Below the pieces are notes generated by a model. It made no database searches, was not told the DNA's origin, and saw nothing but the letters and a program-made list of their open reading frames with translations. This document shows, piece by piece, positions 10,346-24,007 of a stretch of 40,588 nt of DNA. Position 1 is the stretch's first letter. The number at the start of each line of letters is the position of its first letter. Source of the DNA: a virus; the IMG/VR virus record IMGVR_UViG_3300030104_002699, positions 1-40,588 of that record; one strand, written 5' to 3'. The position numbers and the translations under genes are program-made.

Positions 10346-10368
10346 GATGAAGTAACGCTAGAGGTCGA

Positions 10369-10623: not shown

Positions 10624-10657
10624 CGTTGTGACCACACGAAAGTTGTTTGGAGCAGCG

Positions 10658-11359
10658 ATGGGTCTTAGTTTGCTTCCATTCTTTCATTGGTTTCGTGGTA
10701 CGCCCCACCAGCTGGCTGCGATTAAGGAGCTTGAGGAGCGAATGCCTGAAGACCTTTTGGCGGAAGAAGACAACGCATGGTTCGATGCGTGGAAAGCAAG
10801 CGGAATTGACCAAGAAGTCTATATGCCTTACTTCAGTCAACTTGACAACAAAGTTGGAATACCTGCCCGACAATGTTTTACAAGCGCGTCGGCCATGGTT
10901 GCAGCTTTTTATAAAAAAGTTAAAACGGACGATGAATACAATGCTATTCGCATTAAGTATGGCGATACGACTTCAGTCAAAGCGCAAATACAGGCGCTAG
11001 AAAGCTTAGGCTTAAATGCAAGGTTTATAAAAAATGCAGATCGGGATATTATTGAAATAGAAATAGAATCGGGAAGACCTGTCATCGTGGGATGGCTAGA
11101 TAAAGGCCCAATCCATTCGCCAACATGTAATTCAGTTAGTTGCGGACATTATTCAGTTATATCTGGTTATAGCGGAAAAAATAGTGCAGATCCTGAGTGG
11201 ATAATGCAAGACCCGCGTGGTTTACCTGACATGCAAAATGGTGGCCATACAAATCCTTATATGGGACGTAATGTTCGAGTACGTCAGGCTGAGTTTGACG
11301 CTAGATGGCAGCCAGAAGGCAGCAACACCGGTTGGGCCATCTTGGTTGATGATCTATGA
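10658..11359 (+). CDS. C39-like cysteine peptidase; candidate endolysin
   Basis: I chose the ATG at 10658 (GGAG five bases upstream); a GTG at 10628 is the alternative and would lengthen the hydrophobic N-terminus. The protein has the C39/papain-like pattern: Cys73 in ARQCFTSASAMVAAFY, His164 in CGHYSVISGY, and Asp185 in MQDPRG. Family knowledge: such enzymes cut peptides, often peptidoglycan cross-links or leader peptides. N-terminal hydrophobic residues (GLSLLPFFHWF) may act as a signal anchor. No other endolysin is visible in the genome, and the gene follows a holin-like gene, so lysis is the best inference. Confidence 0.78.
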   Translation: MGLSLLPFFHWFRGTPHQLAAIKELEERMPEDLLAEEDNAWFDAWKASGIDQEVYMPYFSQLDNKVGIPARQCFTSASAMVAAFYKKVKTDDEYNAIRIKYGDTTSVKAQIQALESLGLNARFIKNADRDIIEIEIESGRPVIVGWLDKGPIHSPTCNSVSCGHYSVISGYSGKNSADPEWIMQDPRGLPDMQNGGHTNPYMGRNVRVRQAEFDARWQPEGSNTGWAILVDDL

Positions 11360-11568
11360 GCTGGTACGCAATTTGGAGTTACCTGACTGCGTTCTGGACA
11401 ATAGTCGTTGTTGGCTGTATGGACCCGTACAACTTTAAATACTGTGTGCAGGTGGATCAGTGGCTGTTTCCTGTTGTCGGTGACATCATGCGTGCAAGGG
11501 AGCCATACGCTTCTGAGCGCCTTTACCTGAAGTCACTGGAGCGTTCCAATGGACTGGATGATCGTTGA
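11356..11568 (+). CDS. Small membrane-anchored protein, 70 aa
   Basis: It starts at an ATG overlapping the peptidase stop (ATGA). An N-terminal hydrophobic segment (WYAIWSYLTAFWTIVVVGCM) with a cysteine at its end could be a signal anchor. The remainder is soluble and ends RSNGLDDR. Overlap with the peptidase gene suggests a linked job in lysis, for example as a holin or regulator. Confidence 0.65.
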   Translation: MSWYAIWSYLTAFWTIVVVGCMDPYNFKYCVQVDQWLFPVVGDIMRAREPYASERLYLKSLERSNGLDDR

Positions 11569-11755
11569 ACCAAGCTTGGAAGCAAGGTTGAGGCTTGAGT
11601 GCAGTTGCCGTGGAATTAAGGAAGGAACTGATTTAGCTCAGCTTCAAAACTTGTGCATAGCGCTTATGCAGCAGAATTTTTACCAAGGCCTGATGCTGCG
11701 TCAAGCCGTTAACCACATTGCATCAAAAGAACCCAGCTTGATGGCTGGTGGTTAA
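11549..11755 (+). CDS. Small helical protein, 68 aa; tentative NblA-like
   Basis: The ATG has GGAG seven bases upstream, inside the previous gene. The protein is mostly helical: EPSLEARLRLEC, then a polar linker (REIKEG-like), then LAQLQNLCIALMQQNFYQGLMLRQAV. The pattern of an LE-x-x-L-x-L helix, a short loop and an LL-rich helix ending in basic residues recalls NblA, the phycobilisome degradation adaptor. The match is loose and could be chance for a two-helix protein. If true, it would help dismantle the host light-harvesting antenna. Other options are an unknown small phage regulator. Confidence 0.7.
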   Translation: MDWMIVEPSLEARLRLECSCRGIKEGTDLAQLQNLCIALMQQNFYQGLMLRQAVNHIASKEPSLMAGG

Positions 11756-11793
11756 AATTTGGAAGTATTCCTTGATGAGGGGTGCGACAGAGT

Positions 11794-11813
11794 CTCCTGC
11801 AGCGGATCAGGAG
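11794..11813. other. Inverted repeat at a convergent gene junction
   Basis: CTCCTG (11794-11799) pairs with CAGGAG (11808-11813) across an 8-base loop, between the end of the plus-strand gene at 11755 and the end of the minus-strand gene at 11807. There is no T-run on either side, so it is not a convincing intrinsic terminator. Confidence 0.35.
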
Positions 11814-11977
11814 TGAGGGGCGTCAGGCGCGTGAGCCGGTTCTAGTCCGCAATTTTTTGTGCGAAGGCAATAGCTGAAAAACCATTGAGCATGCCATTCA
11901 TCAACAAAATAACGACGCATCCCTGCGTGGGAAACCAGCCACTGGCCATCTATGTGTTCAATGGTTGGTTCGTTCAT
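11807..11977 (-). CDS. Small hypothetical protein, 56 aa
   Basis: I chose the ATG giving MNEPTIEHIDGQWLVSHAG instead of the longer frame start at 12058. The first 40 residues are tryptophan- and aromatic-rich (QWLVSHAGMRRYFVDEWHAQWFFSYC) and look like a conserved small domain. There is no recognised family. It is the last gene of the long minus-strand early cluster. Confidence 0.6.
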   Translation of the reverse strand: MNEPTIEHIDGQWLVSHAGMRRYFVDEWHAQWFFSYCLRTKNCGLEPAHAPDAPHS

Positions 11978-12061
11978 TTGTTGAGGGCTTACACGAAGCG
12001 CAACACAGGTCAGCCAACCCTTGCAGCCGTTTCCGGTACTGCACGCATGATGCCTCAAAAA

Positions 12062-12379
12062 TCAAAATTCGTCGTCAGCCTCTTGTTTTTTGACTGGCAA
12101 AGTAAAATCAGACACGTTTAGCTGGAGGCTGTAACCCTTGCCTCCATCCTTGCGGTCATATTCTTTCAGCTTGCCCTGGCCACAGACTGTAATTTTGTCG
12201 CCTTTGTGCATGTACTGCATGACAGTGTCAGCCCGTTTGCCCCAAACTTGGCAGTTGATCCAAGTAGTTTCATCCTTACCAGTGCGTGTAGCGATGCTGA
12301 AATTGGCAACTTGTGAACTGTTTGTTTCCTTGAGTTCAGGGTCTTTGCCGATGTTGCCATGTGCGGTGATGTTGAGCAT
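12062..12379 (-). CDS. ssb: Single-stranded DNA-binding protein
   Basis: The 105-aa protein matches the OB-fold SSB pattern: LNITAHGNIGKDPEL at the N-terminus, VANFSIATRTGK, then TTWINCQVWGKRAD and YMHKGDKITVCGQGKL. The C-terminus is short and acidic (EADDEF), like the partner-binding tip of bacterial SSB. It is shorter than E. coli SSB because the linker is missing. It coats ssDNA during replication and recombination and lies with an annealing protein and a resolvase. The ATG overlaps the end of the upstream RHH gene. Confidence 0.9.
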   Translation of the reverse strand: MLNITAHGNIGKDPELKETNSSQVANFSIATRTGKDETTWINCQVWGKRADTVMQYMHKGDKITVCGQGKLKEYDRKDGGKGYSLQLNVSDFTLPVKKQEADDEF

Positions 12380-12540
12380 TACTGAAAAAATTTGTTGAGA
12401 ATAGTTTTAAGGGCTTGGTTTTGGTTGCAGTTGCGCGACGCCATAAAATCGCGCAACTTGTCGGCTAAATCGTCATCTAGCCGCACCTGAAAAAAGTTTT
12501 TGCGACGTTTGAGATCAGCGTCTGCTTGTGTCTGCGGCAT
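12379..12540 (-). CDS. Ribbon-helix-helix-like DNA-binding protein, 53 aa
   Basis: A basic N-terminal arm (ADLKRRK) leads into a beta strand (NFFQVRLDD) and two helices (DLADKLRDFMASRN, then QNQALKTILNKFF), the layout of Arc/CopG-type repressors that bind short palindromes as dimers. An upstream in-frame ATG at 12561 would add seven residues and overlap the previous gene; neither start has a clear Shine-Dalgarno. It is a candidate binder of the repeated TGGCATGCCA operator, but that is inference. Confidence 0.65.
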   Translation of the reverse strand: MPQTQADADLKRRKNFFQVRLDDDLADKLRDFMASRNCNQNQALKTILNKFFQ

Positions 12541-12544
12541 GGCA

Positions 12545-13183
12545 TTAGGCAGTGATTTCATTCATGGCATTATGCAGAAATGTGCGATGGGTGTAGGTTT
12601 GGATCTTATCTTTTACAGGTCCATCGGGATAGTTGAACTGCTTGCGGAACTTGGCGATCAGTTCTTTTTTGTGTTCTGGTATTAATTCCTTAATAACGCC
12701 ATGCAGCAGGTTTTTGTCTGCGTCATTCATTGGGTCATCAGGATTGGGTTCTGATGCTGGTGTTGCAGCCGCAGGCTTTGCTGACTCAGTTTTGCGAGCA
12801 GGACGGTTAACCTTTTTTTCTTCCTGTGGTTCTGCTTCAGCATCAGTATCCATATCAGCAACAATGCCTAGGATTGAGCAGATTGCGTAACGGCGTTGAT
12901 ACGTAACAGCCTTTCCCCATTCCTGCGTCTGGTTGCGGCCATCGCAGATCATCAACTGGCAAGAACTGCTGATAGTTTCACCACTGGTATGGTGCAGGGT
13001 CGTGATCAATGATTGGCCATCAAAAGTTTGCGTGATTGCAAGGTCATTGGCGTGCATTGGTGGCGTGACAGTAGACAGCACATTGGCAAGGTCTGCAAAT
13101 TTGCCGTAGTTAGCCCGTGCATTTTTGTCGATTTTATCGACAGCTTGATGGAAACCGATTAAGGCTTTTGTAAGTTCAGACAT
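12545..13183 (-). CDS. erf: ERF-family single-strand annealing recombinase
   Basis: I chose the start at 13183 (MSELTKALIGFHQAVDKIDKNA), which overlaps the RusA stop by 8 bases, over the longer frame start. Residues 1-120 fit the ERF core: ANYGKFADLANVLSTVTPPM, LITTLHHTSGETISS, then GKAVTYQRRYAICSILGI, the usual YxRRY-type segment before the acidic end. A charged, alanine-rich linker follows, then a C-terminal helical domain (about 160-212). It promotes annealing of complementary ssDNA with SSB, and sits with SSB, RusA and a PD-(D/E)XK nuclease as a recombination module. Confidence 0.88.
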   Translation of the reverse strand: MSELTKALIGFHQAVDKIDKNARANYGKFADLANVLSTVTPPMHANDLAITQTFDGQSLITTLHHTSGETISSSCQLMICDGRNQTQEWGKAVTYQRRYAICSILGIVADMDTDAEAEPQEEKKVNRPARKTESAKPAAATPASEPNPDDPMNDADKNLLHGVIKELIPEHKKELIAKFRKQFNYPDGPVKDKIQTYTHRTFLHNAMNEITA

Positions 13184-13622
13184 CAATAGTGGTGATGGTG
13201 ATGTGGACCCCTTGTGGTTCATTGCCGACTGCATATCGACGTTCAGCTTGAAGGCTGAAAACTTGGGAGTCATCGTCGTATGCAATGCCTGTTAGCGCGT
13301 CAAAAACGGCTCTACAAAGCTTGTCAAGGTCTCCAATGCGTGTAACGCAATGCTGTGGAGCATTTCCTTTAAGGTTGCCATTGGCGCGAAAGTGAGATTT
13401 GGGCCTAGCAAAAACAAAGGTCAACGCTAGCGACACTGGTAGTTTGGCATGCCATTGCGCAGGTTGCAACTTGTGGGCAGAAATTGAAATCACTGCTCTC
13501 CACGGGTTTACGGCGGCTGAGCTTTCCCCAAGGATTGCTCTTCCTTTGACGTAGCGGTGGACTTTTTTGCTGCCTTGTGGGGCTGGTTTTCCGGCGGCGA
13601 AGAAGCTGTAACTATTGGGCAC
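13176..13622 (-). CDS. rusA: RusA-type Holliday junction resolvase
   Basis: The 148-aa protein starts with the typical FFAAGKPAPQGSKK strand-loop and carries the acidic metal-binding residues of RusA: Asp98 and Asp100 in GDLDKLCRAVFDALTG, then Asp116-118 in AYDDDSQV. It would cut four-way DNA junctions during phage recombination or before packaging. Its 5' 115 bases overlap the preceding gene in another frame, and its 3' end overlaps the ERF start by 8 bases. Confidence 0.92.
   Translation of the reverse strand: MPNSYSFFAAGKPAPQGSKKVHRYVKGRAILGESSAAVNPWRAVISISAHKLQPAQWHAKLPVSLALTFVFARPKSHFRANGNLKGNAPQHCVTRIGDLDKLCRAVFDALTGIAYDDDSQVFSLQAERRYAVGNEPQGVHITITTIDV
13445..13454. promoter_or_regulatory. 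TGGCATGCCA palindrome inside rusA, possible internal minus-strand promoter
   Basis: The same 10-bp palindrome found at four promoters occurs here within the resolvase gene. On the minus strand it is flanked by TTGCAA at 13464-13469 and, 17 bases on, CAAACT. The -10 is poor, so this may be only an operator or a chance match inside coding sequence. It lies about 260 bases before the ERF start. Confidence 0.35.
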
Positions 13623-13759
13623 TGCTGCTTGTATGCGTGGTAAAACGCTTGTTCTAATGCAGTCAGTTTGGGATGTTTTTCATTTAATGCAGCCTTGGCC
13701 CTAGCTTTGGCTGCAGCAATGAAATCGTCTGTCAAAACGTTGCGAGACAGGCGAGCCAT
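13508..13759 (-). CDS. Small hypothetical protein overlapping rusA, 83 aa
   Basis: The N-terminal half is a regular helix-rich domain (MARLSRNVLTDDFIAAAKARAKAALNEKHPKLTALEQAFYHAY). The C-terminal third is low-complexity P/K/S/T and coincides with the 115-base overlap with rusA, so that part may be free to drift. The start directly abuts the previous gene. No family is recognised. Confidence 0.6.
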   Translation of the reverse strand: MARLSRNVLTDDFIAAAKARAKAALNEKHPKLTALEQAFYHAYKQQCPIVTASSPPENQPHKAAKKSTATSKEEQSLGKAQPP

Positions 13760-13963
13760 TTACTTCAACTTTTTGCATGCACGTTTCCAGCCTTGCTCGC
13801 AGTGATAAGCCTGCTGCTGGTCAAGCGTTGAAGTGATGGAATACCAGGCCGCTGCTCCAAACAACAGACAGGCGACAACAGTCACAATTGTGTTGACTTT
13901 TGTGCTTGCGCGTTCAGGGTCATAAAACCCAGAACTCAGCTTGTGATGCTCGTAGTTTTTCAT
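13760..13963 (-). CDS. Small single-span membrane protein, 67 aa
   Basis: A polar N-terminus (MKNYEHHKLSSGFYDPERAS) precedes a transmembrane helix (VNTIVTVVACLLFGAAAWYSI) and a basic C-terminal tail with two cysteines (HCEQGWKRACKKLK). It sits in the early cluster with no spacing to the next gene. It could act on the host envelope or superinfection, but the sequence gives no function. Confidence 0.65.
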   Translation of the reverse strand: MKNYEHHKLSSGFYDPERASTKVNTIVTVVACLLFGAAAWYSITSTLDQQQAYHCEQGWKRACKKLK

Positions 13964-13966
13964 TGA

Positions 13967-14452
13967 TTAGCGGCGAGTTTTTGGTGGACGGCCCCGGCGG
14001 GGCTTGGAAACTTGTATTTGCTGGGCTTTGTACTTTTCTTTTGCCTTTTCTCTTGCTTGCCGCAAAAGCTCACAGGCTTGGTGGTTTTCCTCCAGTTCTT
14101 TGTACTTAGCCTGAGCTTCAACTACTTGTACACACCGAGCTACAATTGATTCCTGAATCATTTCTTGCGCTTGGTGGTGACGCCAAAACCACGTTTCAGA
14201 GTCTTGGTTGGTGTACTCCTTAAGCAGTTTTTCATGTTCTTCCGTGACATCTTCTTGTCTAAACTGGGCATCTATAGTGGCGTCAAATGCAGCCATCAAT
14301 GAAGCGACTTTGCGGGCTTCCATGATGACTTTGCGGTCTGCTTCGCGGATGCTTTCAAACCGTTTGCGATGTGCAGCAAGTGCCTCAACGACCTCAGGTT
14401 GCGTTTCTACAAAACGGTTTTGAGCGATGTAATCAGTTGGTTGCGTTGTCAT
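13967..14452 (-). CDS. Coiled-coil protein with AT-hook-like tail, 161 aa
   Basis: I chose the start MTTQPTDYIAQNRF at 14452, which overlaps the upstream stop by 20 bases. Most of the protein is charged helix with heptad character (HRKRFESIREADRKVIMEARKVASL; AQAKYKELEENHQACELL). It ends KPRRGRPPKTRR, an AT-hook-like motif for minor-groove DNA binding. I infer a DNA-associated protein. No enzymatic motif is visible. Confidence 0.65.
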   Translation of the reverse strand: MTTQPTDYIAQNRFVETQPEVVEALAAHRKRFESIREADRKVIMEARKVASLMAAFDATIDAQFRQEDVTEEHEKLLKEYTNQDSETWFWRHHQAQEMIQESIVARCVQVVEAQAKYKELEENHQACELLRQAREKAKEKYKAQQIQVSKPRRGRPPKTRR

Positions 14453-14681
14453 GGTAATTGCGGAAGTGTTCTTTAAAAGCATCTGGCCTGGAGCTGTACG
14501 CCTGCAAGGCTTTTCCCAGCAGGTCAGCTTCTAAAAACCCCAAGGAATGGCGAAAAGGTTCTGGGCCATTGCCTTCGCCTATGAGTGCAAGGAACTTGCC
14601 CCAAGTGCTTTCAACTTCATTGTCTTGCCAGTCAGCGAGGCGATCCATGTGATACAAAGCCTCTTGGTAGTTCATTAACAT
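14433..14681 (-). CDS. Small hypothetical protein, 82 aa
   Basis: The protein is acidic and helical (YQEALYHMDRLADWQDNEVESTWGKF, HSLGFLEADLLGKALQAY). A second ATG two codons in (MNYQEAL) is an equal start candidate. No domain is recognised. It overlaps the AT-hook protein gene by 20 bases, so the two are likely co-translated. Confidence 0.6.
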   Translation of the reverse strand: MLMNYQEALYHMDRLADWQDNEVESTWGKFLALIGEGNGPEPFRHSLGFLEADLLGKALQAYSSRPDAFKEHFRNYHDNATN

Positions 14682-14685
14682 AGTT

Positions 14686-14877
14686 TCAATAAATTGGTTG
14701 ATGGCGTTGGTGAAACAGGTCAGTAAGTTTCAAATCTAAAAGTGCGATTTGGTTGGCCCGACTGCCTGGCTCTGGTATCAGGTCTGTGTCAGGCAGTTGG
14801 TTGCGAGCTTGTCTTGCCAACTCGTAAAGAAGGTCAAGCTCAGATCCATTGAAAACAACTGTGTAGTCAGGTTTCAT
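14686..14877 (-). CDS. Small hypothetical protein, 63 aa
   Basis: A compact helical protein (NGSELDLLYELARQARNQLP, ANQIALLDLKLTDLFHQRH) whose ATG overlaps the stop of the upstream gene (ATGA). No known family. Its place among short, tightly packed early genes suggests a host-takeover accessory role, by context only. Confidence 0.6.
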   Translation of the reverse strand: MKPDYTVVFNGSELDLLYELARQARNQLPDTDLIPEPGSRANQIALLDLKLTDLFHQRHQPIY

Positions 14878-15071
14878 TTGGCGTTTAGTTTTTGCTTGAC
14901 GAGTTTGCCGATCATGTTGCGGTACTTGCCAACAGCTTTGCGGTGGGTAGTCATTGCTGCCATGTCGTTGGCAGCAATAGCGTGGCTGTAAGCAGTTTGT
15001 GCGTCATCAAGGAAAACCTTGATGTTGTCAATTTGTTGTTGGATGGTCATTGGCTTGTGTGTGGAAGGCAT
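14874..15071 (-). CDS. Small hypothetical protein, 65 aa, first gene after a regulated promoter
   Basis: The ATG at 15071 lies about 10 bases after the expected transcription start of the promoter at 15089-15117. A later ATG (MTIQQQIDN) is an alternative start. The protein is helical and ends in a basic stretch (GKYRNMIGKLVKQKLNAK). No domain is recognised. Confidence 0.6.
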   Translation of the reverse strand: MPSTHKPMTIQQQIDNIKVFLDDAQTAYSHAIAANDMAAMTTHRKAVGKYRNMIGKLVKQKLNAK

Positions 15072-15088
15072 CCCTGCCCGTTGAACAT

Positions 15089-15117
15089 ATTATGGCATGC
15101 CATTATCTGGTTGACAA
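15089..15117 (-). promoter_or_regulatory. Sigma70-like promoter with TGGCATGCCA operator
   Basis: On the minus strand: TTGTCA (15112-15117), a 17-base spacer, CATAAT (15089-15094). The palindrome TGGCATGCCA (15093-15102) fills the end of the spacer and the first bases of the -10, so a bound protein would block RNA polymerase. It overlaps the last codons of the upstream gene and drives the 14874-15071 gene and those beyond. Confidence 0.75.
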
Positions 15118-15722
15118 GCCCACAACTTTCCGGATTTGACTGCATCCCACATAACCTCATTGATTAGGTCAGAAACTTGCACGCCTTTAAGTTCTGCTGC
15201 AACTCGTAAAATCACCATTAAACCTTGATCGGTTTTGCCTTGTAGGCGTGCTGTGCTTTTTGTCAGCAACAAGCCCGGATTGTCACCTTGCTGGAAAAAT
15301 GCGGTGATTTGATCTGGCTGGTTTGAAGCTGTGATTTTGCCATCTTCAAAAACATCCAGCGGCGAACGTAGTTCTGTTTTGGCAACTTGCAGTGCCTGCC
15401 AGCTCATCAAACCTTCTGCAGTTTTTTTATCAAAAGGTTCTTGCTTTTCAAGAGGAAGGGCAGCGCCAGACCATTGAACTGTATCTTCGTGACGTATGTC
15501 CGTGACCATTACCCAAAGGCAAAGGCCAGATTTAGTCAAAACGTCATTAGGAATTTGTGTGAGTTGTTTGATGTTTTCGTCAGGTGCTCCTGGAGGTCCA
15601 GGGAATACGCGTACTTTTTCAGTGCGGCCTTGGTTGACGACAATCCCATACAAATGTGGGCTTTTGTTGTTGGGTTGGGCTTCTGTGATGTGGACTTTGA
15701 CTTCTTGTTTTGTTAGGTCCAA
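15090..15722 (-). CDS. Hypothetical protein, about 210 aa
   Basis: The frame opens with a TTG at 15761, but that lies upstream of the -10 box of the promoter at 15747-15775, so I prefer the TTG at 15722 (LDLTKQEVKVHITEAQ), preceded by AAGG. The protein has a beta-rich N-terminal half (HLYGIVVNQGRTEKVRVFPGPP) and a helical C-terminal segment (ILRVAAELKGVQVSDLINEVMWDAVKSGKLW). No catalytic motif or family is recognised. Its start is uncertain by up to 13 residues. Confidence 0.65.
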   Translation of the reverse strand: MDLTKQEVKVHITEAQPNNKSPHLYGIVVNQGRTEKVRVFPGPPGAPDENIKQLTQIPNDVLTKSGLCLWVMVTDIRHEDTVQWSGAALPLEKQEPFDKKTAEGLMSWQALQVAKTELRSPLDVFEDGKITASNQPDQITAFFQQGDNPGLLLTKSTARLQGKTDQGLMVILRVAAELKGVQVSDLINEVMWDAVKSGKLWACQPDNGMP

Positions 15723-15746
15723 TGCCTTGTGTGTGATGGCTTGTGA

Positions 15747-15775
15747 AGCATGGCATGCCAATTACTTGCGTGCAA
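15747..15775 (-). promoter_or_regulatory. Sigma70-like promoter with TGGCATGCCA operator
   Basis: On the minus strand: TTGCAC (15770-15775), 17-base spacer, CATGCT (15747-15752). TGGCATGCCA (15751-15760) has the same offset from the -10 as in the other promoters. The -10 is weak (CATGCT), so activity may be low. It would drive the gene ending at 15090. Confidence 0.55.
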
Positions 15776-15953
15776 CCCTAGGTATGATTTTTTCTTTGCG
15801 CTTGGCGCTGCCTTTTGCGCGTTTCTTGCCATGTTGCGCATACCTTAAGCGGCTTGCTTCAGCTGCGGCTTGAACAGATTCAGCCCTGCCTGGCGGCTCA
15901 CCTGCCCCACCATTTGCAGGGTCAAGCAATTTTGCCCAGTCCATGCGCGCCAT
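15762..15953 (-). CDS. Small basic hypothetical protein, 63 aa
   Basis: I chose the ATG at 15953, coupled to the nuclease stop (TGATG). The N-terminus (ARMDWAKLLDPANGGAGEPPGR) is followed by a helix and a strongly basic tail (HGKKRAKGSAKRKEKIIPRVARK), suited to nucleic acid binding. No family is recognised. Coupling suggests it works with the PD-(D/E)XK nuclease. Confidence 0.55.
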   Translation of the reverse strand: MARMDWAKLLDPANGGAGEPPGRAESVQAAAEASRLRYAQHGKKRAKGSAKRKEKIIPRVARK

Positions 15954-16510
15954 CACCAATCTTCCAGTTCAAATTGATATCGATCCCAACTGTCTAGCCA
16001 CAGTTCAATACACTCATCAGGGTTTTGCCGGATGATACGGCATTCTTTTGGCCCAGACACAACTGTCACGCATTTATCAACATGCAAGGCAGGATGGTGG
16101 TCTATAAGCATGGCTAAATATGCTCCGAGTTGATCAGTGGCAGGTTCGCGGTTTCGTGCCCTGCTTTTGCTGCTAACAGTCTTTAAGTCGCCCAAAATGA
16201 TTTCACCTGTTGATGACTGCAGCAGAAAGTCAAACGAGCCGCCCATAGACTTCCTGGGATCGCACAGCCTGTATTCCGTTGCAATCGTCTTTGCATTCTT
16301 AAATAGCTCGCAATCCAGTATTGGGTCAATCCAGTCTGTCCAGCGTTCAGCGAACTCAATTGGCTCACCTTTCAGGTAGTTCTCTAGTGCGTTGTGGGCT
16401 TGTTCGCCCCGTGCTGCCCATCCGTTAGGGCCATCCTTGTATCTCATGATGTTGGCCAGCGCATCAGTGGAAAGCTTTGCTCCCACGACACCTGTAACAG
16501 TCCTGGCCAA
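15953..16510 (-). CDS. PD-(D/E)XK nuclease (Cas4/RecB-like phage exonuclease)
   Basis: From the TTG at 16510 the protein is 185 aa. The fold's motifs are in order: Asp94 in GGSFDFLL, Asp108-Leu-Lys110 in ILGDLKT, and Gln127 in QLGAYLAMLIDHH; Glu79 (ATEYR) may also bind metal. Such enzymes resect DNA ends and pair with annealing proteins such as the ERF here. Upstream, the same frame is open and encodes FFPEWHKYKYRAEW, which looks like native N-terminus, but no ATG/GTG occurs before a stop. The real start may be a rare codon (CTG near 16552), or there is a frame error in the A-rich run at about 16565-16582. Confidence 0.82.
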   Translation of the reverse strand: MARTVTGVVGAKLSTDALANIMRYKDGPNGWAARGEQAHNALENYLKGEPIEFAERWTDWIDPILDCELFKNAKTIATEYRLCDPRKSMGGSFDFLLQSSTGEIILGDLKTVSSKSRARNREPATDQLGAYLAMLIDHHPALHVDKCVTVVSGPKECRIIRQNPDECIELWLDSWDRYQFELEDW

Positions 16511-16586
16511 CCACTCAGCTCTGTACTTGTACTTGTGCCATTCAGGGAAAAATGACAGGTCTTTGATTTCTTTGATTTTTCGGGGT

Positions 16587-16615
16587 TGTCAGGCGGGTTC
16601 ATTTTGGGCACAATT
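16587..16615 (+). promoter_or_regulatory. Sigma70-like promoter for the replication genes
   Basis: TTGTCA (16587-16592), 17-base spacer, CACAAT (16610-16615). The transcript would start near 16622, so the TTG at 16615 cannot be the start of the next gene, which points to the GTG at 16639. Unlike the other promoters here it has no TGGCATGCCA palindrome, so it may be constitutive or the earliest to fire. Confidence 0.65.
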
Positions 16616-16638
16616 TGCCAGCAAAGCAACCCTGCAAC

Positions 16639-16803
16639 GTGCCCGAACTGGACCTTTTCGCCAACACCAAAGTCCTTATTGACCCAAGGGTTATCGCTGA
16701 GCTAGATCGCAAAAAACCTATAGGCGTCAGCCGCACTGGTTGGGTCAACCTCCTGTTGCAAAAAGCCATAGCCTCAGAACCTGAGCCCTTAGCTCGTGAT
16801 TGA
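16639..16803 (+). CDS. Small ribbon-helix-helix-like DNA-binding protein, 54 aa
   Basis: The GTG start is chosen because the longer TTG start lies inside the promoter's -10 box. The sequence has a strand (NTKVLIDPR), a helix (VIAELDRKKPIG) and a second helix (RTGWVNLLLQKAIAS), close to the beta-alpha-alpha layout of RHH repressors. It is the first gene of the rightward early operon, a usual place for a regulator. It could bind the palindromic operators. It overlaps the next gene by 8 bases. Confidence 0.6.
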   Translation: MPELDLFANTKVLIDPRVIAELDRKKPIGVSRTGWVNLLLQKAIASEPEPLARD

Positions 16804-17176
16804 CTACGAAAAGGAGCATCAGGCATGGATGCTTTTGCAGTGGCAACCGTGGTCACTGCCAAATGAGTTTGACGAAGACCTGGCAGAAAAGGGTTACTAC
16901 ACAGACCTGCAGCGCAAACGGTCAGACCAAGCTTTAGATGACTGGGATGCTCAACATCCTGAAAAAAACAGCCCCGAACTAACAGCTTTCAAAGAGCTTG
17001 AACGGCAGAGGGTTTACGGACAACGCACATGGTTCTCGCCCTCCAAGGCCAAAGATGGGTTCTACACACAACGCCTCAAGCAACGACAAGACCGCGGACC
17101 CAAGCCTTCAGGATTCGCTGGAGCAAGTCGCACAGCTAAAAAGCGCAGCCGTAAAAGTCGTTGGCGCAACGAATGA
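16796..17176 (+). CDS. Hypothetical protein, 126 aa, overlapping the helicase gene
   Basis: Start is GTG, overlapping the previous gene's end. The protein is rich in W, Q and acidic residues at the N-terminus (HQAWMLLQWQPWSLPNEFDEDLAEKGYY) and strongly basic at the C-terminus (TAKKRSRKSRWRNE). The last 122 bases also encode the N-terminus of the helicase in another frame. No family is recognised; partnership with the helicase (for example loader) is only a guess from position. Confidence 0.6.
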   Translation: MIDYEKEHQAWMLLQWQPWSLPNEFDEDLAEKGYYTDLQRKRSDQALDDWDAQHPEKNSPELTAFKELERQRVYGQRTWFSPSKAKDGFYTQRLKQRQDRGPKPSGFAGASRTAKKRSRKSRWRNE

Positions 17177-18767
17177 TTCTGTTGACCGTTTGTTCATGCT
17201 GCGAAACCAAGCTGAAGAGCTTGGTTTTGCCATTAGCAAATCAGAAGCAGCCCATTACCTTGCTCAGGCCACTGGGCGCAACGTTGGCATCCCTGAACCA
17301 AAGCAAGGTGGACAGAAGCTTGATGTTTCGCCTGTTCCTTGGTTGTGGGAAGGGGTCATCATGCGTGGACGTCAAAACTTAGTGGTGGCACCGCCAAAGG
17401 TGGGTAAGTCAGCCCTGATGACAGCGATGGCAGCTGCTGCGTTGCGTGGTGAAGCTGAGTTCCTTGGCATTCCAATCCACGGACAGGTCAACAAGCTGAT
17501 CATTGTTGGCACGGACCAAAACGTATCTGACTGGTGGGTGCTGTTTGAACGTGAGGGCCTTGGCACCCAAGGCGTTGATAAAAACGGCGAGTGTTTCCAC
17601 GAGCTGGCGGAAGGAGTCATCCTTTGGAGCCTTGAGGATGCAGTGCAGCTCAACGACAATGGCCTTGACGCTATTGCGGCTATGGCGTCCAAGCACCCAG
17701 GTTCACTGGTTTTAGTGGACACATATCACGCTTGTGTTGGCCAGCTTGGGATTGAAGAAGCCAGCAGCGATTTTGATATACCAGCCCGAAAGCTTGAAGT
17801 CGTGCTGTCTGGTACCAGAAGTACCACTGTTTTGGTCCACCACACCAATAAATCGGTGTCTGGCGGCAATGCCATCACAGCTAGCAGGGGGAGCAACAGC
17901 CTTGCAGGTGCTGTCAGTTGGTCTGTGCTGCTCAACTGGCTGAAGGTGCCTGTTGAAGGCCAGATGCAAACCGATCACCGGATTGCTGTGAAACCAATGG
18001 GCAGAAGCAAGGCCACAAACTTGGTGGTTGAATTGACTGACGACGGTTGGGTAAGCCATGGCGACGGTGACGACGCCATTGCAGCTGAAGCCCGTGCGCA
18101 GGTTGAGGAAACGCTGCAAGGCCGTCAGGAATCGGTTTATGACCACTGCTGCCAGCTGTGGGAAAACAAGGTGCATACAACAGCTGCTGAGGTCGGCAGC
18201 CACTGCAACATCAACAGACAAAAAGCATTGCGCACGCTCAAGGCATTGTGCTCAAAAGGGTTGATTGCCCAAGACGGTGAACTTCCACCTGACACTGCTG
18301 GCAGGCCTGCTGCTTTGTATCGCCCTGTATTTGACACCCCAATTGACCCATCCAAAAAAAGCGGGGGTCAAAAGGCTCAAACGTGTCAAATTCAAGAATC
18401 ACCATCTGATGAGCAAGGGCCTAGGGGTCAAAGGGGTCAAATACCTCCTGTATTGGGATCTGATGCCTCGCGCGCACATATAAAAAAGGATTTGACACAT
18501 AAAACACACTTGACCCCCGTTGACGGCGGAGGGGTGCCTGAAGGTGTCTTATTGCCGGTGCCTGTTGGCACGCATGTTGAGCGATTTATTGACGACTCTT
18601 GGAAGAACGGCTGGCTTGTGCGTGATGGGTCCAACCCCAACCGAATGGTGATTGCAAGGCTGGGCAACGAAATGGTGACCATGAGCAATCAGCGTTGGGG
18701 CGTTGACATCCGTGAAAACAAGGGCAGCGTCTTTGCTGCACCAGCAACAGAAGATGATGAATGGTGA
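17055..18767 (+). CDS. RepA/DnaB-like AAA ATPase, replicative helicase candidate
   Basis: From the ATG at 17055 the protein is 570 aa; an earlier start at 16998 would deepen the overlap with the upstream gene. It has a RecA-type ATPase core: Walker A APPKVGKSALM (Lys118), Walker B SLVLVDTYHA (Asp222), then VLVHHTNKS with a His-His sensor-like pair. A winged-helix-like segment follows (VHTTAAEVGSHCNINRQKAL), then a disordered linker and a small C-terminal beta domain (NGWLVRDGSNPNRM). Plasmid RepA-type hexameric helicases share this core. No primase or polymerase is visible, so it probably recruits the host replisome. Confidence 0.82.
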   Translation: MGSTHNASSNDKTADPSLQDSLEQVAQLKSAAVKVVGATNDSVDRLFMLRNQAEELGFAISKSEAAHYLAQATGRNVGIPEPKQGGQKLDVSPVPWLWEGVIMRGRQNLVVAPPKVGKSALMTAMAAAALRGEAEFLGIPIHGQVNKLIIVGTDQNVSDWWVLFEREGLGTQGVDKNGECFHELAEGVILWSLEDAVQLNDNGLDAIAAMASKHPGSLVLVDTYHACVGQLGIEEASSDFDIPARKLEVVLSGTRSTTVLVHHTNKSVSGGNAITASRGSNSLAGAVSWSVLLNWLKVPVEGQMQTDHRIAVKPMGRSKATNLVVELTDDGWVSHGDGDDAIAAEARAQVEETLQGRQESVYDHCCQLWENKVHTTAAEVGSHCNINRQKALRTLKALCSKGLIAQDGELPPDTAGRPAALYRPVFDTPIDPSKKSGGQKAQTCQIQESPSDEQGPRGQRGQIPPVLGSDASRAHIKKDLTHKTHLTPVDGGGVPEGVLLPVPVGTHVERFIDDSWKNGWLVRDGSNPNRMVIARLGNEMVTMSNQRWGVDIRENKGSVFAAPATEDDEW

Positions 18768-18800
18768 TGGCTTGCCATTTGCGTAATGGCATGCCATGAT
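18767..18800 (+). promoter_or_regulatory. Promoter with two spaced palindromic operators
   Basis: TTGCCA (18772-18777), 17-base spacer, CATGAT (18795-18800). Operator O1 ATGGCTTGCCAT (18767-18778) covers the -35, and O2 ATGGCATGCCAT (18786-18797) covers the spacer end and -10. The operator centres are 19 bp apart, almost two helical turns, as for cooperative binding on one face. The same arrangement recurs at 19168-19201. It drives the 18829 gene. Confidence 0.8.
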
Positions 18801-18813
18801 CTAATCAAGTTCA

Positions 18814-18828
18814 GCCGAGAGGCCACAC
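18814..18828 (+). promoter_or_regulatory. Leader hairpin with GAGA loop before the 18829 gene
   Basis: GCC-GAGA-GGC at 18814-18823, followed by CACAC and the ATG. The GAGAGG also serves as a Shine-Dalgarno-like sequence, so part of the ribosome site is inside the stem. Similar elements precede the next two genes. Confidence 0.5.
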
Positions 18829-19158
18829 ATGACCACTACAACTTTTCAAACTGATCGCTTTGAAGTTGGGCAAATCGTTTGCTCCAGCTATGGGTACGAC
18901 ATGACCCTTGTGCAGTTTTACATCGTTGATCGCATGACTAAAGCCAGCGTTTGGCTGCGTCCTGTTGAGTGCCGCGTGTTTGGTGATGATGGGCGCGGTG
19001 AAGGTCGCGCTATCCCAAACACTGGATGGCAAGCGCCTGACAATGCAGTGTTCCGCAAGCGCATCCACGAAACTGACGGCAAGCAATGGTTGAGCGACTC
19101 AATCAAATACTTCCGTATCTGGAATGGCAAGCCTGAGTACTACAACAGCTGGGATTGA
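18829..19158 (+). CDS. Hypothetical protein, 109 aa
   Basis: The ATG follows GAGAGG by 7 bases. The protein looks like a compact beta-rich domain (FEVGQIVCSSYGYDMTLVQFYIVDRM, ASVWLRPVECRVFGDD), and ends with a tyrosine-rich segment (IKYFRIWNGKPEYYNSWD). No known family. It has its own regulated promoter and leader hairpin, so it is probably an early, dose-controlled gene. Confidence 0.75.
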   Translation: MTTTTFQTDRFEVGQIVCSSYGYDMTLVQFYIVDRMTKASVWLRPVECRVFGDDGRGEGRAIPNTGWQAPDNAVFRKRIHETDGKQWLSDSIKYFRIWNGKPEYYNSWD

Positions 19159-19167
19159 TGCCAGCCA

Positions 19168-19201
19168 ATGGCTTGCCATCTGCATGGTGGCATGCCATAA
19201 T
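19168..19201 (+). promoter_or_regulatory. Second promoter with paired operators
   Basis: TTGCCA (19173-19178), 17-base spacer, CATAAT (19196-19201). O1 ATGGCTTGCCAT (19168-19179) and O2 TGGCATGCCAT (19188-19198) have centres 19 bp apart, exactly as at 18767-18800. The -10 (CATAAT) is closer to consensus than in the first copy, so it should be stronger. Confidence 0.82.
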
Positions 19202-19209
19202 CAATTCAA

Positions 19210-19221
19210 GGGCGAGAGCCC
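19210..19221 (+). promoter_or_regulatory. Leader hairpin with GAGA loop before the 19237 gene
   Basis: GGGC-GAGA-GCCC, a perfect 4-bp stem with a GNRA loop, followed by ACCACAC. The stem differs in sequence from the hairpins at 18814 and 19403 while pairing is kept. Confidence 0.5.
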
Positions 19222-19236
19222 ACCACACGCAAGCTC

Positions 19237-19389
19237 ATGCATAACGACACCATTCAAGCCTTGCAGCAACTCGCTCAAGCACTCATTGCCAATCCTGCAG
19301 ATTTAGACGCGCTTCAGGTTTATGGCGAACTGCCTGATCATTTGGCAGATGCGCTACACGACTTCACTGATGACCACATGGGCGCTTAA
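19237..19389 (+). CDS. Small acidic protein, 50 aa
   Basis: ATG to TAA gives a helical, acidic peptide: HNDTIQALQQLAQALIANPAD, then LQVYGELPDHLADALHDF and a DDHMGA end. It is led by its own promoter and hairpin and has clear coding character, though short. No family is recognised. Confidence 0.6.
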   Translation: MHNDTIQALQQLAQALIANPADLDALQVYGELPDHLADALHDFTDDHMGA

Positions 19390-19402
19390 GTCCTTTTCAC
19401 GC

Positions 19403-19420
19403 ACCGAGAGGTACACACAC
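19403..19420 (+). promoter_or_regulatory. Leader hairpin with GAGA loop before the 19421 gene
   Basis: ACC-GAGA-GGT (19403-19412), then ACACACAC and the ATG. It lies within the operon without a new promoter, so it acts, if at all, after transcription. Confidence 0.45.
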
Positions 19421-19609
19421 ATGAAAAACAAAATCACCACACTCGCTGAGCACTGCATCGACCCTGCTGTTGGTGCTGATAAAGCTTGGGATGTAGTTCA
19501 TGAATGGCTCCACATGCACGGCCTTGAAATCACCGCTGAATACGAAGAGGCATTGCACAATGAAATATATAACTTGCTTGGCCGCTCAGAACTTGTATCA
19601 ATAGACTGA
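19421..19609 (+). CDS. Small acidic hypothetical protein, 62 aa
   Basis: I chose the ATG at 19421, directly after the leader element, not the earlier in-frame start. The protein is helical (LAEHCIDPAVGADKAWDVVHEWLHMHGLEI, AEYEEALHNEIYNLLGRS) and acidic. No known family. It belongs to the operon begun at 19173-19201. Confidence 0.65.
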   Translation: MKNKITTLAEHCIDPAVGADKAWDVVHEWLHMHGLEITAEYEEALHNEIYNLLGRSELVSID

Positions 19610-19628
19610 TCAGTCGTCGGGGAGCCTG

Positions 19629-19733
19629 ATGCCTGTTTCCCCCAGCAGGCTGAAAGCTATACAACACCTGTGTTGGCAGGAAAGGCAAGGCGCATGTGTG
19701 TTGCGATCCATCCCCCGACAACAACAACACTGA
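19629..19733 (+). CDS. Possible 34-aa peptide with strong ribosome-binding site
   Basis: GGGGAG lies four bases before the ATG, one of the best Shine-Dalgarno sites here. The peptide starts MPVSPSRLKAIQHLCWQE and is basic. Its stop is 8 bases before the next start, fitting a leader peptide or coupled small gene. The same DNA can form two competing stems (AGCCTG with CAGGCT, GGGGA with TCCCC), so it may be a regulatory leader instead. Confidence 0.35.
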   Translation: MPVSPSRLKAIQHLCWQERQGACVLRSIPRQQQH

Positions 19734-19741
19734 TTACTTCC

Positions 19742-20044
19742 ATGACTAAACGCCTCTATGGCGAAAAGCTGCTAAAAAAATTTGTTTCTATGAAAAAAGA
19801 ACGTAAAGCCAAAGTAGTCCTTTCCTGTGGCTACAAAACAAGCCACAACTCCAGCGGGCGCACGTTGCCTAACTACGAAGCTTTCTACGCTGCACTTTTT
19901 GAAGCAAAAAAAGAACAAGATGCCAAAGACCAGCCATTTGGCCTCTGTGGCCATCAGAATCAAAATGAACGTAAAGCCATTGCAGCTCATGCCCAGCGAC
20001 TCCGAGCCCTCTATGCCAAATCCAAGGATTCGCAGCTTGAGTGA
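19742..20044 (+). CDS. Protein with cyAbrB-like N-terminal motif, 100 aa
   Basis: From the ATG at 19742 the first 60 residues follow the pattern I recall for the cyanobacterial AbrB-like N-terminal domain: YGEKLLKKF, then KVVLSCGY (AbrB-like: ACGYVS), then a glycine-containing loop and AFYAALFEAK (AbrB-like: AFYEALLEAKG). The C-terminal 40 residues are charged and helical (NERKAIAAHAQRLRALYAKS). The DNA-binding AbrB C-terminal domain is absent, so it may interfere with host cyAbrB regulators by dimerising with them. This is inference; the motif match is moderate. Confidence 0.65.
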   Translation: MTKRLYGEKLLKKFVSMKKERKAKVVLSCGYKTSHNSSGRTLPNYEAFYAALFEAKKEQDAKDQPFGLCGHQNQNERKAIAAHAQRLRALYAKSKDSQLE

Positions 20045-20161
20045 TGGTGCTGTTCAAATCACTATTGGCAATATCAAGGGAATTGCAAAATCTCATCTTT
20101 CAGTAAATTCAAAATTGCGTGTCTTTCGGCTACTCTGGAAAGCAAATCCTGAAAACTGGAA

Positions 20162-20755
20162 GTGACAACCGCATCAGACAAAATCGTTTTACGCCACACT
20201 GAAACTCTCAAACCATACGAAAACAATCCAAGGCAACATTCAGAAGCACAGCTTGATCGTCTTGTCCGATCAATTAAGGAGTTTGGTTTTACAAATCCAA
20301 TCCTGATTGACGATGACTGCAATGTGATCGCAGGTCATGGTCGTTTGTTGGCTGCTGAATTGATGGGTTTGCCTAGGGTTCCGACCATCACTCTTGGCCA
20401 CCTTACAGCTGATCAGCGTCGTGCCTACGTCATTGCTGACAACCAACTGGCACTCAACAGCACTTGGGATGACGACGTGCTGCAGTCAGAACTTCAAGCC
20501 CTAGGTGAAGCTGGCTATGACCTGACCCTTTTGGGTTGGGGTGATGACCTTCCTACTTTTGGTGAGGATATTGACCTGTCGGCTTTAGACGACTTGGAAG
20601 ATGACCCAACTGCAGAGCTGGCTGATGGCGTCATGAAGGCCATTCAGATTGAGTTCCGACCTGAAGACTATGAAGAAGCCAAGGCATTGGTGGATGCAGC
20701 CCGCAAACGTGGCGACTACGTGGGCATGAAGCTGATTGAGGCTTTAGCTGTTTGA
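20162..20755 (+). CDS. ParB/Srx-like domain protein, 197 aa
   Basis: The GTG start is used. The ParB-like core is clear: LKPYENNPRQH, then LDRLVRSIKEFGFTNPILID, and the nucleotide-binding/catalytic AGHGRLLAAELMGL, followed by TADQRRAYVIADNQLA. A C-terminal acidic linker and a small helical domain follow (EDYEEAKALVDAARKRGDY). ParB-like proteins of this type often neighbour DNA modification genes in phages. The stop overlaps the glycosyltransferase start (TGATG), so it is part of a three-gene modification cassette. Biochemical role (nuclease, CTPase or DNA-binding) is not settled by sequence. Confidence 0.85.
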   Translation: MTTASDKIVLRHTETLKPYENNPRQHSEAQLDRLVRSIKEFGFTNPILIDDDCNVIAGHGRLLAAELMGLPRVPTITLGHLTADQRRAYVIADNQLALNSTWDDDVLQSELQALGEAGYDLTLLGWGDDLPTFGEDIDLSALDDLEDDPTAELADGVMKAIQIEFRPEDYEEAKALVDAARKRGDYVGMKLIEALAV

Positions 20756-21495
20756 TGCACGTTGCAATCCCCACCAAGGGCAGGCCGTCCACAACCACTT
20801 GCAAGCTCCTTGGTGACATTCCTTTCACCCACTTTGTAGAGCCTCAGGACATGGCTGCTTACAAGGCGGCTGGCGTGCCCAATCTCCAGGTCATTCCCGA
20901 CAACGATAAGGGCATCACCTTTGTTCGGAACTACATCCTTGATTGGGGCCATGTTCAAGGCCACAAGTGGTTGTGGATCATGGATGATGACGTCAGTGGG
21001 TTTGGCGTTGCCAAGGCGGGCAAAACCATCAAGGGCGATCACAACGTCCTTAAGCAGTTTCATGAAGCTGTTGAGCAGTTCAAGTTCCCCGTCAACGGCC
21101 TGAACTACTGCCAATACGCTTGGTCCTACAGCACCAAGAAGCAACGGTTCGCCATCAATAAGCGACCGCCTGAAGTTTGTGCCCTGCTCTATCTCCCAAA
21201 AATCCATTGGCGTTACCGCCCTGACCGCAAGGAAGATCGTGACTTCACGATGCTTGCCATCAAGCACTCAGATGGCGTCATCGTTGATTTGCATGCGTGG
21301 TTCAACTGTCCAGGCGTTGGCACCAATGCAGGCGGCTTGCAGCACCTTTATCAACAAAAGCGTGATGCCGTATGGGCCCAACGCTTGGTCAGTGACTGGG
21401 CTCCCTTTGCCAAGCTCATCAAAAAAAAGGACCGGGTAGACGCAAAGCTCGACATCTCTGGTTACGCCAAACACATGAAGCGCATTGTTCGATGA
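20755..21495 (+). CDS. TET-associated glycosyltransferase (TAGT-like), 246 aa
   Basis: The ATG at 20755 is coupled to the ParB-like stop. It starts with the nucleotide-sugar strand HVAIPTKGRPSTT and has the GT-A metal motif Asp77-Asp79 in WIMDDDVSGFG, then conserved-looking segments (YAWSYSTKK, EDRDFTMLAIKHSDG, FNCPGVGTNAGGL). This matches the family known from computational work (Iyer, Aravind and colleagues) as glycosyltransferases paired with TET/JBP oxygenases in phages. It would add a sugar to hydroxymethyl bases in phage DNA. Its stop overlaps the dioxygenase start by 4 bases. Confidence 0.82.
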   Translation: MHVAIPTKGRPSTTTCKLLGDIPFTHFVEPQDMAAYKAAGVPNLQVIPDNDKGITFVRNYILDWGHVQGHKWLWIMDDDVSGFGVAKAGKTIKGDHNVLKQFHEAVEQFKFPVNGLNYCQYAWSYSTKKQRFAINKRPPEVCALLYLPKIHWRYRPDRKEDRDFTMLAIKHSDGVIVDLHAWFNCPGVGTNAGGLQHLYQQKRDAVWAQRLVSDWAPFAKLIKKKDRVDAKLDISGYAKHMKRIVR

Positions 21496-22301
21496 AGCCT
21501 TTACCTCTTCCAGTTCTCACCCTGCACAGGAAGACGCCCAATCTCAAGATTGGGGACACCTGCCCAACGCTGCAGCCCAACGTCACAGAGTCCTGCATCC
21601 TTGCTGATCCTGACGGCACTCAGGTCGGCCTGTTCCTCAAGCAACTGCCTGATGACTTGAGGAATCTGGTCAACATTGCTGACCACGAGGTCAACTCAAC
21701 CAGGGTGCCCAAAACGATGATGGACCGTAAGCGTCCATTGCCACCCGGGCCTGACGGGAAGAAGCGTTATTTAGTCATCTCGCAGTACTCAGCCATCCTT
21801 GGCAGCGTGCCGCCAAAGCCACATATGCGACGGGCATATGGCTCACGATCTTCTGTCCACAGCAGCAAGACATCAGGGACCTTTGTCAAAGCTATGCACA
21901 AAACAGGCATCATCGCCTACCAACTGATTCAAGAACTTGCTCCTGACGTTGCTAAATTGCATAGCGCCAAGGTGCAAGCGCGTGTGCCTGACAAATGGCG
22001 TTTCGCCAAACATTTCAGCAGCACGATCAGCAACTGCAATATCTCAGCACCTATTCACCAAGATCACGCCAACGTTAAAGGCGCTGTCAACATCATCATC
22101 ACCAAGCGCCGCAACAGCACTGGCGGGAACTTGCACGTTCCTGACTATGACGCCACTTTTGACCAAACAGATGGTTCGATGCTTGTCTATCCAGCATGGA
22201 GGAACTGCCATGGTGTAACGCCAATAGTTCCCACACACCAAGGCGGTTACCGGAACTCACATGTCTGGTACGCCTTGGATTCGTTTGCATCGTTAGGCTG
22301 A
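21492..22301 (+). CDS. TET/JBP-type 2-oxoglutarate, Fe(II)-dependent DNA dioxygenase, 269 aa
   Basis: The double-stranded beta-helix residues are present and in order: His189 and Asp191 in PIHQDHANVKGAVNII, distal His240 in RNCHGVTPI, and Arg254 in GGYRNSHVWYAL for 2-oxoglutarate. The N-terminal 180 residues include the helical segment GTFVKAMHKTGIIAYQLIQEL. TET/JBP enzymes hydroxylate the methyl group of 5-methylcytosine or thymine. With the coupled glycosyltransferase this would give a glycosylated hydroxymethyl base. No DNA methyltransferase gene is present in the genome, so the substrate is open: thymine (as in JBP) or host-made 5-methylcytosine. It ends 4 bases before terminase small subunit. 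Confidence 0.82.
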   Translation: MKPLPLPVLTLHRKTPNLKIGDTCPTLQPNVTESCILADPDGTQVGLFLKQLPDDLRNLVNIADHEVNSTRVPKTMMDRKRPLPPGPDGKKRYLVISQYSAILGSVPPKPHMRRAYGSRSSVHSSKTSGTFVKAMHKTGIIAYQLIQELAPDVAKLHSAKVQARVPDKWRFAKHFSSTISNCNISAPIHQDHANVKGAVNIIITKRRNSTGGNLHVPDYDATFDQTDGSMLVYPAWRNCHGVTPIVPTHQGGYRNSHVWYALDSFASLG

Positions 22302-22305
22302 AACC

Positions 22306-22632
22306 ATGGACAAAAACGGACGCTGCACAAAAGCCGAAAAGCAATTCCGGACAGCAAGGTTTGCCCGGATGATTGCCAATGGGGCAACACGTTCGGACCT
22401 TTTGCAATACGCCGCAAGCGAATGGGGGTTGAAGCAAAGGCAAAGTGATGAATATATTGCCCTAGCCACAAAGCGGCTTGAGGAAGATTTCAACCTAGAT
22501 CGCCAAGCTTTTGCCGCAATACTTTTGTCCCAATTGAACGTTGTCCACAAGAAAGGCATGGAGCAGTCCAATCTCCAAGCTGTGTTGGGCTGCATCAACA
22601 CCGCTGCCAAAATCGCCAAGCTGTATGACTAA
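22306..22632 (+). CDS. terS: Terminase small subunit
   Basis: The 108-aa helical protein has a helix-turn-helix-like N-terminal half (KQFRTARFARMIANGATRSDLLQYAASEWGLKQRQSDEYI) and a C-terminal helix (LQAVLGCINTAAKIAKLY), usual for small terminases that recognise the packaging site. Its TAA overlaps the large subunit start (TAATG). It follows the base modification genes by 4 bases, so packaging and modification are probably co-expressed. Confidence 0.82.
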   Translation: MDKNGRCTKAEKQFRTARFARMIANGATRSDLLQYAASEWGLKQRQSDEYIALATKRLEEDFNLDRQAFAAILLSQLNVVHKKGMEQSNLQAVLGCINTAAKIAKLYD

Positions 22633-23981: not shown

Positions 23982-24007
23982 ACTGCAAGCACTAGGCGGG
24001 TCTGGCT

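Follow-up and report, generated by a model that had tools for sequence, protein, structure and literature searches.

The window analysed here is a virus record of 40,588 bases from IMG/VR (IMGVR_UViG_3300030104_002699), in which a 10-bp palindrome, TGGCATGCCA, is set into the promoters of replication and recombination genes and is a putative operator for a phage-encoded ribbon-helix-helix (RHH) protein, RHH2. Exact copies of the palindrome start at positions 13445, 15093, 15751, 18787 and 19188. Four of them belong to promoters that an initial annotation, made from the DNA letters, had described as sharing one operator, and all four promoters are present as described, with spacers of exactly 17 bases: TTGTCA-N17-CATAAT at 15089–15117 (minus strand, operator 15093–15102), which precedes a gene group starting with 14874–15071; TTGCAC-N17-CATGCT at 15747–15775 (minus strand, operator 15751–15760), which precedes 15090–15761, a frame in whose interior the true start probably lies; TTGCCA-N17-CATGAT at 18772–18800 (plus strand, operator 18787–18796), which precedes 18829–19158; and TTGCCA-N17-CATAAT at 19173–19201 (plus strand, operator 19188–19197). 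As that annotation had it, TGGCATGCCA keeps one offset in every case and overlaps the -10 box; counted from the first T of the -35 box, the offset is 15 bases. Its description of the -10 boxes as CATAAT-like needs correction for the site at 15747–15775, which has a weak -10 that matches TATAAT at three of six positions; its counterparts in loci L035, L020 and L167 have CATGAT. The set of four was incomplete, as a fifth exact copy, at 13445–13454, lies inside the gene rusA, in a promoter-like stretch with a weak -10 (TTGCAA-N17-CAAACT, 13441–13469, minus strand). In all five, a TTG precedes the palindrome by 15 bases and a hexamer resembling a -10 box follows the TTG element at the 17-base spacing.

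The genes discussed below include, on the minus strand, a single-strand DNA-binding protein (SSB; 12062–12379, Pfam PF00436, E 9e-21), RHH2 (12379–12561, 60 amino acids), an ERF single-strand DNA-annealing protein (12545–13285, PF04404, E 5.6e-15) and the Holliday junction resolvase gene rusA (13176–13622, PF05866, E 1.8e-14). A second RHH-like protein, RHH1 (16615–16803, plus strand), was recognised by its motif and has no family match. The promoter-like sequence of RHH1 and the helicase, TTGTCA-N17-CACAAT at 16586–16614 (plus strand), is conserved in relatives and lacks the palindrome. An imperfect GGCA-N5-TGCC repeat stands in the window where the operator would be, and may be a weak autoregulatory site.

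The five exact copies compare with 0.09 expected, and none of 100 dinucleotide-preserving shuffles of the window gave five, in agreement with the original judgement that chance was a very unlikely source. The window holds 34 palindromic 10-mers of 30 kinds, five of the 34 being TGGCATGCCA, and no second 10-bp palindrome stands out. Allowing two mismatches brings the number to an unremarkable 35, against 29.6 expected, and the special status is therefore limited to the exact palindrome. The sequence TGGCTTGCCA, one mismatch away from the operator, occurs at 18768–18777 and 19169–19178, where each copy precedes an operator by 19 bases and overlaps the -35 box of that promoter. It was considered as a second, upstream operator and rejected; since it is present in the window's own group and close relatives only and is unconserved in others, it is read mainly as a -35 element. 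A generic sigma-70 scan of positions 8000–24000 picked up three of the four noted promoters, and its total of 12 does not exceed the 15.6 expected; it is conservation in relatives, therefore, that supports calling these sites promoters. The promoter at 15089–15117, for example, has an orthologous site in L124, L125, L130, L132 and L143.

In a scan of 2.9 million viral contigs, the pattern TTG-N12-TGGCATGCCAT was found in at least 119 stretches and TTGC-N11-TGGCATGCCATAAT in 51, and every locus with at least two such promoters has homologues of genes in the window. To avoid the bias of a search based on the motif, 72 loci were gathered by helicase homology alone. These hold 140 unique contexts of TGGYATRCCA, 111 of which lie in promoters with a -10 box matching at four or more of six positions, compared with 2.3% of random positions; at three of six the figures are 132 of 140 and 7.5%. 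The promoter-operator unit is specific to phages and recurs in the related ones at their promoters, and the palindrome is not equally dense outside promoters, the outcome by which the initial annotation would have been refuted. Among 72 non-redundant promoter-operators, 55 have the geometry seen in the window and 17 carry the palindrome at other spacer offsets, such as directly after TTGCGT (L113), directly before TATATT (L067) or in mid-spacer (L027). The letters are kept and their place within the spacer shifts, which supports reading the palindrome as an operator and not as a promoter consensus. The nearest isolates by terminase (72–76% identity) are S-H1, KBS-S-2A, MED4-117, MED4-184 and P-HS2, and because these are siphoviruses of Synechococcus and Prochlorococcus the host is probably a picocyanobacterium; by helicase the nearest are S-CBS3 (39%) and S-CBS1 (32%). 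An annotated RNA polymerase sigma factor is carried by the isolates S-CBS1 (L169), S-CBS3 (L168) and KBS-S-2A (L296).

RHH1 and RHH2 homologues were collected together with the operators of their own contigs. The predicted DNA-binding strand of RHH2 follows the pattern F-X-V-R-L (F24-Q25-V26-R27-L28 in the window), in which X is residue 25. Among 124 loci with RHH2, some of which share a contig, 107 have Q at X, 10 have G and 5 have N, and H and S are found in 1 each. The pieces of the window itself (L001–L004) were excluded from the counts by operator centre, from the helicase tree and from the stem covariation test described below. At promoters with a strict -10 in Q-type loci with RHH2, the centre of the operator is YATR (CATG or CATA/TATG) at 139 sites and something else at 10; in non-Q loci, counted likewise, it is YATR at 1 site and something else at 7 (Fisher p 4e-7, relatedness ignored). 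These counts group loci by their RHH2 surroundings, and a contig fetched in both orientations (L229/L236, for example) may count twice. By type, Q goes with YATR, H with CAGG, G and S with CGCG, and N mostly with YCGR. The H-type locus L142 has TGGCAGGCCA at several promoters; the S-type locus L223 and the G contigs have TGGCGCGCCA, which was recognised in the G contigs only once the rusA site had suggested it; and the N contigs mostly have CG centres (TGGCCGGCCA, TGGTCGGCCA and TGGACGACCA). Locus L205, with TGGTCGACCA, is similar to L195, an N contig, and its 5 kb include no RHH2. On a helicase tree of 41 loci, the neighbour of H is L141 (Q), that of N is L230 (Q), and a single clade holds G and S; X has moved away from Q three times independently, and each time the operator centre is new.

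The presence of RHH2 also followed that of the operator. Of the loci with a helicase, 35 extend 5.5 kb or more upstream; 25 of these have RHH2 together with an operator promoter in the strict sense, 4 have neither, 5 have RHH2 alone and 1 has the operator alone. TGGYATRCCA was found in none of five isolates without RHH2 (KBS-S-2A, S-H1, MED4-117, MED4-184 and S-CBS1); S-CBS1 has RHH1 only, and a search of it for the operator found none. The isolate S-CBS3 carries both RHH proteins and two TGGYATRCCA operator promoters.

By sequence profile the RHH2 alignment falls among RHH proteins, the best structure-database match being SvtR (2kel, E 8.6e-4), with further matches to a CopG-type protein (9kkd, E 0.0036) and, weakly, to AmrZ (E 0.095). 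In Pfam, Arc was matched by 2 of 14 RHH2 homologues and RHH_1 by 2 of 14, and RHH2 weakly matches phrog_582, an Arc-like family (E 0.0067). A dimer that places an antiparallel sheet in the major groove would fit a palindrome so short and uninterrupted, as it would the covariation with a strand residue. In AmrZ, as reported in PMC3325190, Lys18, Val20 and Arg22 contact bases, and the authors describe the Val20 position as usually occupied by a neutral hydrophilic residue. In our alignment Val20 of AmrZ pairs with X of RHH2 and Arg22 with R, and these phages have Q, N, S, G or H at X. A fixed R27 beside a variable X would be in keeping with arms that stay TGG/CCA around a changing centre.

Taken with the comparative evidence, these observations support the proposal that the palindrome serves as operator to a regulator, encoded by the phage, of replication and recombination genes. 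The initial annotation had left the binder open among candidate RHH proteins; RHH2 tracks the operator and RHH1 does not. RHH2 is likely to be the operator-binding protein, and there is a good case for the full explanation, in which TGGCATGCCA is the operator at which an RHH2 dimer represses the replication and recombination promoters. The two-stranded sheet of the dimer would enter one major groove at the palindrome, where residue 25 (Q here) would read the central base pairs and the nearly constant R27 the TGG/CCA arms. So placed, the dimer would lie over the spacer and over the -10 box at its upstream edge and would block RNA polymerase at promoters of replication and recombination genes on both strands. 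If RHH2 binds there, the position of the sites makes repression the probable outcome; the early timing of the genes, and repression by the bound protein as against activation, are what we infer.

The copy inside rusA was followed through the relatives at the level of codons. In Q phages the operator codons are TGG-CAT-GCC (W-H-A; TGG CAT GCC A in the window) or TGG-TAT-GCC (W-Y-A), and TGG-CGC-GCC (W-R-A) is found in S and G phages only; L047 has W-H-T. The choice of H or Y tracks C or T at the promoters imperfectly, L191 and L189 having W-H-A with TGGTATGCCA promoters, but the H and the Y codons alike belong to the YATR class. S-CBS3, L072, L142, L192 and L229 have no rusA site, and W-D, W-N or W-A stands there instead. 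Because ERF, RHH2 and SSB lie downstream of the rusA copy, RHH2 may limit its own synthesis through it by negative feedback, and autoregulation of this kind is somewhat probable in this phage. An operator kept within a gene, with the amino acid switching along with the operator type, would be a clear example of regulation constraining a coding sequence.

Several observations weigh against this explanation. The window RHH2 taken alone has no significant Pfam RHH match. Its monomer model, of moderate confidence (pLDDT 72), places helices at 30–43 and 47–59 after a stretch at 22–29, adds a further helix at the N-terminus and contains no strand; Foldseek searches with the model gave RHH proteins as best matches (17 of 20 by name), but every E value exceeded 2. 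The non-Q types come from few contigs (H 1, S 1, N 4 and G 7), and although covariation alone matches the specificity of the regulator to the operator of the same phage, the N contig L239 is an exception, carrying TGGCATACCA. Of 30 RHH2 loci with sufficient upstream sequence, five lack a strict operator promoter: L232, L233 and three of G type, whose CGCG sites are in less strict promoters. The whole record of L235 has one operator and neither RHH2 nor RHH1, and several Q phages (S-CBS3, L072 and L192) are among those without a rusA site.

Three other explanations of the palindrome were weighed. RHH2 could bind it and yet activate, do both with repression at high level, or organise DNA. AmrZ and NikR of Helicobacter pylori both activate and repress (as described in PMC3325190), AvtR is reported to stimulate at low concentration (PMC5569661), and the -35 sequence TTGC falls short of consensus; a dimer on sites that overlap the -10 or lie between it and the -35, in promoters whose spacers are 17 bases long, should nevertheless exclude polymerase, and a site that slides within the spacer is ill-suited to a fixed activator contact. 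Such a role is unlikely. That RHH1 binds the operator and RHH2 has another role is still harder to sustain, although RHH1 is encoded between divergent operons, a classical position for a regulator, is kept in most relatives, and has a promoter of its own without the operator. The N contig L229 shares an RHH1 segment with Q contigs whose operators differ; the whole records of L072 and L027 have RHH2 with four and five operators and no RHH1 match, as that of L282 has RHH2, one operator and no RHH1; and RHH1 occurs without RHH2 and without operator in the whole record of L203 and in S-CBS1. RHH1 was accordingly disfavoured as the binder, as it does not covary with the operator and its presence is not tied to it. 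That the palindrome is a core promoter consensus of the host RNA polymerase or the site of a host regulator, as its fixed offset in the window and a TG suited to an extended -10 might suggest, is scarcely credible and was rejected, given that TTG-N12-TGGCATGCCATAAT had just 14 single matches in 84,980 prokaryote genomes, in unrelated taxa and none titled cyanobacterial, that the palindrome slides within the spacer and changes its centre together with a phage protein, and that cyanophage isolates with a related terminase and no RHH2 lack it.

A second feature absent from the initial annotation, beside the intragenic copy, is a hairpin in the leaders of these promoters. In the window it is GGGCA(GGGA)TGCCT at 15066–15079 (minus strand), a short GCC(GAGA)GGC at 18814–18823 (plus strand), with a 4-bp version, GCCG(GAGA)CGGC, in L143, and GGGC(GAGA)GCCC at 19210–19221 (plus strand). 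In 41 of 72 non-redundant leaders the -10 is followed by a GNRA tetraloop closed by four or more stem pairs, against 0.68 expected from mononucleotide shuffles. Covariation was tested in leaders chosen solely by GAGA at positions 10–34 (45 of 105), with L170–L183, which are chance genome hits, also excluded. Pairs 1 to 4 flanking GAGA form in 39, 39, 41 and 32 of the 45, compared with permutation means of 28.4, 24.2, 23.5 and 25.5; pair 5 shows no excess (7 of 45 against 6.8). The stems differ widely through compensatory changes (GGGG/CCCC, GCGG/CCGC, GCCG/CGGC, AGCG/CGCT and GAAG/CTTC), so that structure and not sequence is conserved, and on these comparisons the hairpin is very probably a conserved RNA structure.

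The hairpin is a feature of most operator promoters but not of all. A GNRA hairpin was not seen in the leader at 15747–15775, nor, when read by eye, in that of RHH1 and the helicase, and no 4-pair GNRA hairpin follows the rusA operator copies. Isolates without RHH2 have 0–1 such hairpin promoters against 0.15–0.25 expected, little or no excess, and S-CBS3 has none by the same test. No Rfam family was found in the window at gathering score. Leaders of TGGTATGCCA-type promoters, such as those of L194 at 5844 and L190 at 12344, have ACACCTCA or CAACACCTCA after the hairpin, sequences that resemble the 3' end of 16S rRNA itself and not its complement.

The hairpin begins a few bases after the likely transcription start, and a start codon often lies within 2–20 bases. 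Near the 5' end of the transcript at most operator promoters, it would be a separate device at the RNA level. Stem-loops of the ompA type at 5' ends stabilise mRNA, and the boxB hairpin of lambda has a GNRA-like loop; the leader hairpin is like both in being a small stem-loop near a transcript 5' end, and is set apart by keeping loop type and pairing while its stem letters vary. Protection of the 5' end, or message stability, is the function we tentatively favour. A nut/boxB-like antitermination site or a site of translation control is a possible alternative that deserves attention: a GNRA-type loop just downstream of a promoter recalls boxB and is what the leader hairpin has, some loops have five bases (GACGA), and the start codon is often close behind, as in translational operators. 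The freedom of the stem sequence to vary speaks against it, as does a scan of 8000–24000 in which terminator-like sites showed no excess. A lambda-type nut site also has boxA upstream and works with an arginine-rich protein such as N. The product of the frame 15762–15959 (minus strand) has 65 residues, is very basic in its C-terminal half and matches no family; it could be an RNA-binding protein and is a lead for an N-like one.

Arc and Mnt of P22 are phage RHH repressors that act at phage promoters and are described at the immI region; unlike them, the genome in the window repeats one operator at four or more promoters and at one intragenic site. SvtR and AvtR of archaeal viruses, as described in PMC5569661, are like RHH2 small virus-encoded RHH proteins with several sites on the virus genome, and SvtR acts as repressor at the promoter of its own gene; they bind imperfect repeats of greater length, and polymerisation along the DNA is proposed for them, in contrast to the short perfect palindrome in bacterial-type promoters found here. 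AmrZ of Pseudomonas resembles what is proposed for RHH2 in its sheet in the major groove, its GGC half sites and its aligned contact positions (PMC3325190), and differs in being a bacterial regulator with other sites and partners. In the open-access literature no described operator for marine cyanosiphoviruses was found; judged by title, no paper containing the palindrome string was on phages of bacteria, none on cyanophage, repressor and ribbon-helix-helix concerned a phage regulator, and none on GNRA leaders or coevolution concerned this system.

More speculatively, a clade of marine siphophages may use operator and GNRA hairpin as a two-layer switch, in which one RHH2 residue fixes the operator types, a RusA residue is constrained, and the hairpin tags messages for stability or antitermination. 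If true, this would provide a natural recognition code for RHH proteins and possibly types of superinfection immunity. The co-change of residue and centre offers natural swaps for RHH recognition, which is usually approached by mutants; the window supplies a testable regulator, operator and promoter set for a mostly uncultured phage group; and the coupling of hairpin to operator raises a new question on phage mRNA.

Two further observations concern other sequences. Among recurrent palindromes sought de novo in other relatives, the only one outside the TGG-NNNN-CCA form was TTGTACACAA in L218, a helicase relative without RHH2; a tandem pair lies there at 2803–2823 in a promoter-like stretch, and is perhaps the operator of a different regulator. 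No DNA methyltransferase domain was found among the window proteins scanned. A gene group at 20162–22301 (plus strand) resembles a DNA hypermodification set and comprises a ParB-like domain protein (20162–20755), a TAGT-type glycosyltransferase (20752–21495, Pfam E 8e-13) and a Tet/JBP-like oxygenase (21492–22301, E 6.5e-8 but below the Pfam cut-off).

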